Shown here piece by piece: positions 5,052-7,647 of a DNA stretch of 64,000 nt; the first letter of the stretch is position 1, and the number at the start of each line of letters is the position of its first letter. The notes under the pieces were generated by a model that was not told the origin of the DNA, ran no database searches, and saw nothing but the letters and a program-made list of their open reading frames with translations. This stretch comes from an uncultured Bdellovibrionales bacterium. Lineage in GTDB: Bacteria > Bdellovibrionota > Bdellovibrionia > Bdellovibrionales > UBA1609. The stretch spans positions 175,027-239,026 of the forward strand of contig CAILEP010000006.1 in the NCBI GenBank assembly GCA_903833275.1. The letters run 5' to 3'. The translations under genes were made by a program, and so were the position numbers.

Positions 5052-5089
5052 TGGACAACCTAGGCGCCTTTATGTGATAAAGTGCGCCT
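5052..5089 (+). promoter_or_regulatory. candidate tRNA-Val promoter overlapping a hairpin
   Basis: TGGACA (5052-5057) and TGATAA (5075-5080) are 17 bases apart and fit a sigma70-type promoter about 33 bases before the tRNA. The same bases contain an inverted repeat: AGGCGCCTTTAT (5062-5073) with ATAAAG-T-GCGCCT (5077-5089). This could instead be the terminator hairpin of the upstream gene. It lacks a clear U-run, so I favour the promoter reading with modest confidence. Confidence 0.5.
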
Positions 5090-5112
5090 CGTAATAGCGC
5101 TAGCGTCGTTAC

Positions 5113-5188
5113 AGGGGCTTAGCTCAGTTGGTAGAGCGCTACCCTTACAAGGTAGATGTCGTGGGTTCGAATCCCCCAGCCCCTACCA
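5113..5188 (+). tRNA. tRNA-Val (anticodon UAC)
   Basis: 76 bases that fold as a tRNA with encoded CCA. The acceptor stem pairs AGGGGCT with AGCCCCT, the D stem GCTC with GAGC, and the anticodon stem CTACC with GGTAG around the loop CTTACAA, giving anticodon TAC (reads GUA valine codons). The T arm GTGGG-TTCGAAT-CCCCC has one T-C mismatch. The 3' end from AGCCCCTACCA onward is shared with the right border of the repeat element that starts immediately downstream. Confidence 0.96.
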
Positions 5189-5498
5189 AAACTTTTTAAT
5201 CACCTTTCATGCTTCGTTGCCCCGCCGTTCGCTTCGCTGCGACGTACGTTTACGTACGCCTCACTCGCTTCGTCGGTAACGCCTCGCCTGAAAGGTGATT
5301 AAAAAGTTTTGTGATAGTGCTTCGGGCTTGGGCTTGACGAGCGGCTGAGCGAGGCAAGGCCTCGCGAGCGAGCGGTCGTGTGGTTCGACCGAAATAGCAG
5401 GATGCTATTTCGGAGTGAGCGCAAAGTGCGAACCCGTAGCGATGCGAAGGGCTAGGCGCAGGAAGCGCCGAAGCATTCCCCAAGCCCCTACCAAACTT
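5178..5498 (+). repeat. structured non-coding repeat, copy A, joined to the tRNA-Val 3' end
   Basis: A GC-rich ~300-bp element starting in the last bases of the tRNA. It has four parts. (1) A perfect 23-bp inverted repeat, 5187-5209 with 5289-5311. (2) Between its arms, a region with a self-complementary hairpin CGTACGTTTACGTACG (5243-5258) and CTTCGTTGC-type motifs. (3) A 64-bp core, 5315-5378, identical to copy B, with an internal GCGAGGC-AAG-GCCTCGC hairpin. (4) A variable segment with a perfect 10-bp inverted repeat (CCGAAATAGC / GCTATTTCGG, 5389-5413), ending in CCGAAGCATTCCCCAAGCCC (5468-5487). AGCCCCTACCAAA(A)CTT occurs at both borders (5178-5194 and 5483-5498). The frame open on the minus strand across it has no gene-like features, so I treat it as non-coding. 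Confidence 0.85.
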
Positions 5499-5601
5499 CA
5501 CGAATTTATTTAAGCGCTATCCAAAATTTAGTAAGACCGGAGTCGCCTAAAGCATCCATAACTTGATTGTTTAGATTGCGAAGTGGAAGTGTTTCGCGAA
5601 T

Positions 5602-6119: not shown

Positions 6120-6425
6120 CTACCGCGCGATCTTAAATTCAACCTTGGGGTTAATGGTCTCATTATAAGCAATGAGTTTGTCAGTCGAGACTTTGTCGAT
6201 TCGATGATTAACGACTTCGCTGACGCGAGCCTGGTCAATGCCAAGCAATTTTGCAAACTCAACTTGCGATAAGTTTTTTTGAGCCATAAACCGCACCAAG
6301 TTTTGGCAGAGCTCCCAGCGGAATTTCTCTGCCGAAGTTGAGCTGGGGCCGACCATTAGAGTGCCCTCAATTTTGTTTAATTTGGCGTCCATCTCTTTTA
6401 GTTTACTTTTGCTAGGGTAGCCCAT
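6120..6425 (-). CDS. XRE-type helix-turn-helix protein, probable antitoxin
   Basis: 101 residues. Residues about 45-95 hold a classic helix-turn-helix: NLVRFMAQKNLSQVEFAKLL, GIDQARVSEVVNHRIDKVST, DKLIAYNETINPKVEFKI. This resembles the XRE/HTH_37 antitoxins paired with HigB- or RelE-like toxins, which are encoded second in the pair. It begins two bases after the stop of the 97-residue gene at 6428-6721, so the two are cotranscribed and likely translated together. Inference: it binds the partner toxin and autoregulates the operon. The N-terminal 40 residues (SKLKEMDAKLNKIEGTLMVG) look like a short coiled coil, unusual for the family. Confidence 0.75.
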   Translation of the reverse strand: MGYPSKSKLKEMDAKLNKIEGTLMVGPSSTSAEKFRWELCQNLVRFMAQKNLSQVEFAKLLGIDQARVSEVVNHRIDKVSTDKLIAYNETINPKVEFKIAR

Positions 6426-6427
6426 TT

Positions 6428-6721
6428 TTATCTCCTATAGGCATTTACAATGCCGACAAAAATCTCGTTGTCGTGCAGCAGCCAAATGAGTTTATAAAAC
6501 AGCCCATCTTGCTCCATATGATCATTCACAAAATAAAGGTAACCGTTTTCATCCTTGTCGATTGGCCCAAATGTTTTGCCGTCAAGCTGATTGACCAGCG
6601 CAAGAATCGTTTCATCCGTTACAGAGTCTGCGTGCTTTTCTTCATAATGCGGGTCAATGACAACTTTCTGAAGATCCCGACCATTGACGTTTAATTTTAC
6701 CAGATACTCACGCCGACTCAT
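6428..6721 (-). CDS. small protein paired with an XRE antitoxin, probable toxin
   Basis: 97 residues, ATG at 6721 overlapping the stop of the upstream gene (ATGA). The product has the size and mixed alpha/beta pattern of RelE/HigB/BrnT-like toxins: HYEEKHADSVTDETILALVN, YLYFVNDHMEQDGLFYKLIW, LLHDNEIFVGIVNAYRR. The final NAYRR with nearby histidines would fit an RNase-type site, but I cannot assign it to a named toxin family. The strongest argument is context: a gene of this size directly followed by an XRE protein. It could also be a non-toxic partner of the regulator. Confidence 0.6.
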   Translation of the reverse strand: MSRREYLVKLNVNGRDLQKVVIDPHYEEKHADSVTDETILALVNQLDGKTFGPIDKDENGYLYFVNDHMEQDGLFYKLIWLLHDNEIFVGIVNAYRR

Positions 6722-6981
6722 AAATCAGAAGGTACATCATCTTGCAATATATTGCAAGATTTAAGTGGGTTTATTGTTGAACGTTTGCCGCGGACGAAGT
6801 TTGTGGATGTGCCGATGTGGGCCGCGACCCGTTTATTGGTGCCGAGCTTTAGGTATAAGGCTTTTAAATCATCAGGTGACAGCGATTTGGGTTCAGGATA
6901 TGCCTCTAGTTCGAATATAACGGTAGTTGAGCCTCGGTAGGGCGGTTCGTCTACTTGAGTGAGTTCCCTACCAAACTTCAT
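6718..6981 (-). CDS. putative helix-turn-helix protein coupled to the toxin/antitoxin pair
   Basis: 87 residues from the ATG at 6981; its TGA overlaps the ATG of the next gene, so translation is coupled. Residues about 33-60 (SLSPDDLKALYLKLGTNKRV, AAHIGTSTNFVRGKR) look like a helix-turn-helix that reads DNA or another partner. The start codon and first five codons (MKFGR) lie inside the left border of repeat copy B, so the original N terminus may have been replaced or lost when the repeat arrived. A longer minus-strand frame through the repeat to 7284 exists but is non-coding in character. Function unknown; a third component of the toxin/antitoxin operon is inference. Confidence 0.45.
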   Translation of the reverse strand: MKFGRELTQVDEPPYRGSTTVIFELEAYPEPKSLSPDDLKALYLKLGTNKRVAAHIGTSTNFVRGKRSTINPLKSCNILQDDVPSDL

Positions 6982-7229
6982 ATCCACTTCGCCATACTTC
7001 GTTACTCGCCACTCGGGCTTGGTCATGTGCCTTGGGCACACTCCCTTCGCCGCTCGTGACTCGCGCCTCGTCTGGCTCGCGTCTATGAAGTTTGGTAGTG
7101 CTTCGGGCTTGGGCTTGACGAGCGGCTGAGCGAGGCAAGGCCTCGCGAGCGAGCGGTCGAGCGGGAAATGCGTCGTGTTCGACGCGTGGGGCCCGCCGAC
7201 CAGGATGGCCCGAAGCAGTCCCCCAGCCC
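6966..7229 (+). repeat. structured non-coding repeat, copy B
   Basis: The second copy, not next to a tRNA. Its border CCCTACCAAACTTCA (6966-6980) is identical to the right border of copy A (5486-5500). A perfect 15-bp inverted repeat, 6968-6982 with 7084-7098, occupies the position of copy A's 23-bp arms but has a different sequence. Between the arms a GTGCC-TTG-GGCAC hairpin (about 7026-7038) replaces copy A's CGTACG hairpin. The 64-bp core at 7096-7159 is identical to 5315-5378. The variable part folds as nested stems GGTCG/CGACC, GCGGG/CCCGC and GCGTCG/CGACGC. The right end (7210-7229) matches copy A at 18 of 20 bases. It cuts off the sulfurtransferase pseudogene. Confidence 0.85.
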
Positions 7230-7647
7230 ACGCGTGGCTCGGGGCCGCGTCCAAGAAAAAGACCTTCGGATCTGGCATCAACAATTAAGGTACTATTGCG
7301 AATGGCGCCCTCAAGCGCAGACTTGTCGTAAATAACAATTGTGCTGTTTTGATGCGCGCCAAAGGCCTGAGGCTCGCTGGCAAAGTTTTTACCTGCGGGC
7401 ATCATGTGCGGCAACGGTGAGTCGAGGCCGCACATTTTTTTTCAAAATCGAAAAATTGCGTTCTTGAGATCGGGACTTCTAATTTCGAACTGGGCGGACG
7501 AACATTTACCGAAACAAAAGTGGCATCCAGAATTACAAGATCAGGAAGCCAAAAGTTTTCGTTGAGCCAGTCAGCAGTAACGATCGGGCCGGGAAGTTGT
7601 CCTGAGCGCATTAATCTGTTGCGCGTGGCTAAGCGCTTTTCTATCAT
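7230..7647 (-). pseudogene. rhodanese-type sulfurtransferase (SseA-like) remnant
   Basis: The N-terminal part (GPIVTADWLNENFWLPDLVI, LDATF) is typical of 3-mercaptopyruvate/thiosulfate sulfurtransferases. There are three lesions. The frame breaks in a run of eight A near 7436-7443 (FFDFEKK continues as CGLDSPLPHMMPAGKNF in the next frame; one extra A would restore it). After STIVIYDKS about 80 expected residues are missing and the text jumps to the second-domain motif LIVDARSEGLFLGRGPEPR. The gene then stops matching at EPRVG, exactly where repeat copy B begins. The catalytic cysteine region is absent. The start is probably the ATG at 7611 rather than 7647. Confidence 0.75.

Follow-up and report, generated by a model that had tools for sequence, protein, structure and literature searches.

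A small structured unit behind a tRNA-Val gene suggests a hitherto undescribed family of miniature mobile elements in Bdellovibrio-like bacteria

The window, i.e., the whole stretch of 64,000 nucleotides analysed here, comes from an uncultured Bdellovibrionales bacterium (assembly GCA_903833275.1, contig CAILEP010000006.1). It carries a tRNA-Val(TAC) gene followed by a compact, structured unit (Table 1). The initial annotation had recorded at this place a repeat of the tRNA 3' end after some 300 bases, a perfect 23-bp inverted repeat and the absence of a convincing open reading frame, and all three observations were confirmed. The direct repeat, TCCCC(C/A)AGCCCCTACCAAA, lies at 5172-5190 and 5477-5495, with 18 of 19 bases identical and a spacing of 305. 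The inverted repeat belongs to the hairpin H1, whose 26-nt arms (5187-5212 and 5286-5311) are complementary at 25 of 26 positions, 23 bp of them perfect. Pfam matched no ORF within 5082-5501, and the unit contains neither an integrase gene nor an ORF assignable to a family.

The copy of the tRNA end is present as had been described, but it is not a simple one: it reproduces the T-arm and the acceptor end, and its T-loop is interrupted by an insert of ~85 bases, referred to below as E. Further features also go beyond the earlier description, among them a second, degraded unit (Table 1). A reverse-complement copy of the tRNA end (R) sits between H1 and the direct copy, weak at tRNA-Val and clear at Leu and Arg loci, and the direct copy extends back to the 5' strand of the T-stem (5374-5388). 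R1, a model of the first E hairpin, scores 56.1 bits at 5382-5415. The 3' half of tRNA-Val, from the T-loop to the CCA, is presumed to be the left attachment core.

Table 1. Features at and downstream of the tRNA-Val(TAC) gene, in positions of the window.
Feature	Position	Strand	Basis or remark
tRNA-Val(TAC)	5113..5188	+	ARAGORN and Rfam
H1 hairpin, first bp at CCA, 23-bp perfect stem	5187..5311	+	repeat alignment
Dispersed 'B' repeat filling the H1 loop	about 5208-5290	+	B copies aligned; hairpin stems vary among loci
R, imperfect reverse complement of T-arm and acceptor end	5312..5345	+	sequence comparison
D5' (GGTCGTGTGGTTCGA), copy of T-stem 5' strand plus TTCGA	5374..5388	+	sequence; also at other tRNAs
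E, conserved insert splitting the T-loop of the tRNA-end copy	5389..5474	+	model R1 and hairpins
E hairpin h1, loop AGGAT	5389-5413	+	hairpin listing
E hairpin h3, loop AGGAA	5455-5469	+	hairpin listing
D3', direct copy of the tRNA 3' end, T-loop A through CCA	5475..5493	+	repeat alignment
HTH_37 protein, antitoxin-like, between the two units	6120..6425	-	Pfam PF13744, E=1.5e-10
97-aa partner of the HTH gene	6428..6721	-	patchy in the order, 46/141 genomes
Third, short tRNA-end copy (TTCCCTACCA) ahead of the second unit	6964..6973	+	sequence
H2 hairpin, arms ACTTCATA / TATGAAGT running on into CCTACCA / TGGTAG	6974..7099	+	
Second, degraded unit: R-like segment, CCAGGATGG hairpin, tRNA-end remnant CCCCCAGCCC at 7220-7229	7100..7229	+	

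The whole second unit, including the short tRNA-end copy, spans about 6964-7229, and the segment 5312-5378 of the first unit is 99% identical to 7093-7159. Four tRNA-end copies thus lie within 2.1 kb at tRNA-Val, so that successive insertion events have probably stacked at this site. Between the two units, the HTH gene and its 97-aa partner probably form a toxin-antitoxin pair. Abutting the second unit on the minus strand (7240-7647) is a degraded sulfurtransferase (SseA/rhodanese-like) gene, an apparent pseudogene that is truncated there, according to ORFs read by eye.

A search with the whole element returned same-genome matches beside tRNA-Met, tRNA-Pro and tRNA-Gly, and given these further copies the arrangement at tRNA-Val is no chance product. 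The 37 tRNA matches in the source genome were located and the DNA 3' of each was inspected; reading of this genome covered the surroundings of tRNA genes and a few further stretches. The same or a related layout was found 3' of Val, Met, Glu, Pro (two), Gly, Arg (two), Ser, Leu and other tRNA genes, each with its own tRNA end. Overall, ~30 tRNA or tmRNA loci show the layout, with units of about 180-310 bp, in a sample that includes many draft genomes assembled from metagenomes and in which the contig ends at several of the tRNA loci. Whether copies lie next to different tRNAs, whether the tRNA-end copy tracks its host and whether empty sites exist were the questions raised by the initial annotation; the first two received a positive answer, and orthologous sites lacking the element were found. 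Different tRNAs are used both within one genome and across other genera and several families of the order, and tmRNA also serves as host.

Using tRNAs from four to five genomes, we found a downstream copy scoring at least 12 for 14 of 125, compared to 0.9 expected when the tRNAs were swapped, indicating that the copy follows its host. Moreover, the AGGA-loop hairpin and the tRNA-end copy co-occur (copy present at 23 of 33 loci with the hairpin versus 9 of 156 without it), figures that express an association and not a frequency, as the loci were partly fetched for having E. The copied block starts in the T-loop, mostly at positions 57-60, and stops 0-5 nt past the CCA at 21 of the 23 loci that retain the CCA; at a few loci the copy continues through the terminator. 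Attachment cores in tRNA genes usually have this form, with a start in the T-loop and an end at the CCA. As in tRNA-integrating islands, the tRNA-end repeat stands at the far end of the element and its block of identity ends at the mature 3' end.

The element at tRNA-Val is absent from all 28 relatives read. In most of the order the neighbours upstream of this tRNA gene are retained, and in same-genus genomes other DNA lies downstream, with glycosyltransferase genes in a different order. Orthologous sites without the element were found in a same-genus genome for the Glu, Leu and Arg tRNAs, where the upstream genes are conserved, and tmRNA loci are occupied in 4 of 22 Bdellovibrio genomes. The DNA behind the Bdellovibrio tmRNA 3' end differs in nearly every genome (L254-L275) and looks like an insertion hotspot. 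As the downstream DNA differs among genomes, the right boundary at tRNA loci is unfixed. The only precise empty site concerns E alone, away from tRNAs, and no pair of tRNA loci has both flanks identical. In the interval that separates a response-regulator gene from an ABC-transporter gene (both named by reading the sequence), genome G049 has GCCCGACAC[E]GCAGTCGG, genome G062 has GCCCGACACGCAGTCGG, and genome G064 has the G062 sequence but for small changes. At this one site the filled and empty states differ cleanly by ~60 bp, with a direct repeat of 2-4 bp, (A)CAC, and the simpler reading of the three sequences is that E was gained in G049 rather than lost from G062 and G064. This site and the T-loop had suggested a general rule by which E enters hairpin loops, an idea that flank permutation did not support (p=0.40 and 0.16).

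Using R1 at a strict threshold, E was detected in 23 of the 141 genomes of the order, and an exact 21-base pattern occurred in 27 stretches among 84,980 species, all labelled Bdellovibrio-like or unplaced Deltaproteobacteria; the counts of E rest partly on loci selected for matching it. The best reading is that the element is specific to Bdellovibrionota. E carries two hairpins with GGA in the loop and lies on the tRNA strand at nearly all loci, and its stems differ among copies while the loops are conserved. For the first hairpin (h1), 96.8% of cells were paired, with 38 double-changed cells versus 8.3 in shuffles and less than 50% pairing in slid controls, in a set that is biased toward h1 pairing because R1 includes it. 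The second GGA-loop hairpin, outside the search model, was present in 40 of 55 copies, with 43 GGA loops compared to a shuffle mean of 3.6 and a maximum of 11. No terminal inverted repeats common to E copies were seen by eye. Rfam searches at gathering and permissive thresholds returned tRNA only and no match for the element; likewise, phage and plasmid collections gave no match to the element, and viral contigs gave none to the 21-base E hairpin pattern, a 16-base piece being matched 14 times. That no element with such a layout had been described, as initially stated, is consistent with the empty Rfam searches and with the literature found. A second core type occurs at Leu, Asp and Asn tRNAs (L041, L045, L168 and L223), with hairpins like AAGTCAGACAGGATGTGTGACTT in an E-like layout that R1 missed or barely scored. 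In Bdellovibrio bacteriovorus kdesi (L117:1740-2330), a reverse-oriented E copy lies behind tRNA-Glu and adjoins a second AGGAT hairpin.

Among the 51 ORFs neighbouring the units, no recurrent integrase or transposase was found. RAYT genes are present in 96 of 141 genomes and were considered as mobilisers of E; this candidate was rejected, as E adjoins none of 20 RAYT genes and RAYT presence fails to separate genomes with and without E. The B repeat adjoins 2 of the 20, apparently at one orthologous locus in two Bdellovibrio genomes, where the RAYT gene encodes 188 aa. This B-type repeat, ~100 bp long (L101:1525-1630; many places in G049, G062 and G064), is related to the repeat in the H1 loop of the window and reaches >15 copies per Bdellovibrio genome. 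In at least one place, convergent genes are separated by a terminator-like hairpin that has this repeat in its loop.

The case for mobility is made of many different tRNA hosts, a copy that follows the host, patchy occurrence, a block ending at the CCA and the clean gain or loss of E at one site. Taken together, the data suggest that Bdellovibrio-like bacteria harbour a family of miniature mobile elements not described before. The explanation towards which we lean, with modest confidence, is a protein-less, non-autonomous element of tRNA and tmRNA 3' ends that would be moved by a recombinase encoded elsewhere. Its layout runs from the host tRNA through a terminator-like hairpin, the reverse tRNA-end copy and the core E to a copy of the host's T-loop-to-CCA segment. 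Recombination would take place inside the T-loop; the incoming element would supply a replacement tRNA 3' end and displace the old one downstream, which would position E at the right end of the element. Mobilisation would occur in trans. E may be recognised as a folded single strand, given the covariation of its stems and the constancy of its loops.

The earlier interpretation offered two options, a mobile unit and a gene for a structured RNA sharing a transcript with the tRNA. The checks described above favour its mobile part, although nothing was found in favour of the retro-type variant that it had also named, and its RNA-gene alternative stays a rival because the core keeps two GGA-loop hairpins. 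According to that alternative, E would be made as RNA, either by transcription reading through from the tRNA or from a promoter of its own. The two hairpins would bind and titrate CsrA, the tRNA-end copies being by-products of landing. We regard such a sponge as possible without being probable, and it may be either the main rival to the mobile element or an added function of it. The CsrB repeat is CAGGA(U/A/C)G (PMC7652899), which the h1 loop, C-AGGA(U/A/C/G)-G, equals, and the best CsrA sites have ANGGA-type loops placed directly on a stem (PMC4005645). Like CsrB/RsmZ-type RNAs, E carries several GGA motifs in hairpin loops. The strong covariation of h1, the second GGA-loop hairpin found independently of the search model and the location of E on the tRNA strand agree with this alternative, as does csrA itself, which was found in 57 of 60 relatives and looks canonical in the source genome. 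However, csrA also occurs where E is absent, E matches no Rfam family, its 10-bp stem exceeds the usual length of CsrA SELEX sites (PMC7652899), and a terminator-like hairpin stands between the tRNA and E. Titration of CsrA also leaves unexplained why the copy follows the host, and fixed loops with free stems would be expected as well if a recombinase were to recognise a folded single strand. The two readings could be combined: a mobile family of CsrA-titrating RNAs might spread via tRNA and tmRNA 3' ends, each insertion repairing the tRNA with the 3' end it carries and setting a two-site sponge under or next to tRNA transcription, a proposal that we consider doubtful.

The reverse copy R raises a difficulty for integration, since it is no part of a classical integration product. 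A local fold-back duplication (tandem inversion duplication) accommodates it better than simple integration does: template switching at the terminator hairpin would produce X, X', X without site-specific recombination, with R between two direct copies, and E would enter the spare T-loop later and harmlessly. At Leu-gag, Leu-tag and Arg-acg the palindrome indeed continues beyond H1 into the tRNA end, some third copies take in the trailer and the terminator, and at Arg-acg R is present while D and E are absent. Nevertheless, most copies stop at the CCA and not in the terminator, E-less copies are rare (the locus L230 being the one clear case), and a shared core at the same T-loop position in several families is left unexplained, which makes fold-back duplication unlikely as an account of the family. 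The readings as a mobile element, an RNA sponge and a fold-back product overlap in part and are not fully exclusive. Integron-like cassettes would be a further account, the hairpin unit serving as an attC-like site on toxin-antitoxin gene cassettes that stack at tRNA ends. A homologous toxin-antitoxin-like pair does lie between the tRNA end and the E unit both in the window and at tRNA-Ser (L130), where it is part of a gene-bearing 1.7 kb, and at L123 copies of a tmRNA-like end flank gene-bearing segments. Against this, the window's 97-aa-type protein occurs at 29 loci with E or a tRNA nearby at only one, and the other neighbouring genes are ordinary and diverse; we rejected the toxin-antitoxin cassette on the former count and hold integron-like cassettes in general to be highly improbable.

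The favoured mobile element can be compared with several known systems. It resembles the tRNA/tmRNA 3'-end islands and satellites of tyrosine recombinases in its direct T-loop-to-CCA copy, its intact host tRNA, its use of many tRNA types and tmRNA, and its patchiness, but it is only about 180-310 bp long, lacks genes, and has an inverted copy and a conserved two-hairpin core. With REP/REPIN sequences and their RAYTs it shares a short, non-coding, palindromic, dispersed and intergenic nature, as well as a B repeat beside RAYT in two Bdellovibrio genomes, whereas E has no RAYT neighbour, is tied to tRNA ends and copies its host. MITEs are likewise non-autonomous, and the ~60-bp E, cleanly missing from the empty site and accompanied by a direct repeat of 2-4 bp (at one site), recalls them; E copies, however, lack obvious shared terminal inverted repeats (by eye) and combine variable stems with conserved loops. 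CsrB/CsrC and RsmX/Y/Z have CAGGA(U/A/C)G-loop hairpins like the two of each E, in contrast to which E, known from sequence, has two sites only, no Rfam match, a junction with tRNA genes and a patchy distribution. Finally, integron attC sites and cassette arrays also show a structured site, variable stems and arrays bounded by repeated sites, but here the site is a copy of the tRNA end and there is no general association with cassettes.

Such an element would be far smaller than any integrative island and would work at tRNA ends free of genes, in predatory bacteria about whose small RNAs very little is known. Two questions become testable, namely the identity of the enzyme that recognises a core whose loops are fixed and whose stems are free, and a possible connection between tRNA loci and CsrA through the GGA hairpins. 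The many orthologous filled and empty sites offer natural experiments. If the combined reading were true, a selfish element would be plugged into a global regulator through tRNA genes.

Other short repeats were also observed behind tRNA and tmRNA genes. Palindromic ATACCGGATATC-like or GATATC-rich short repeats occur immediately after the CCA of tRNA or tmRNA at L018, L039, L192 and L254. Another repeat, with GGTTCTACTCGGTTCGTAGTGGGTAATTT or close variants, lies shortly 3' of tRNA or tmRNA at L010, L029, L036, L255 and L265, several of them at contig ends, and is probably the end of an insertion sequence.
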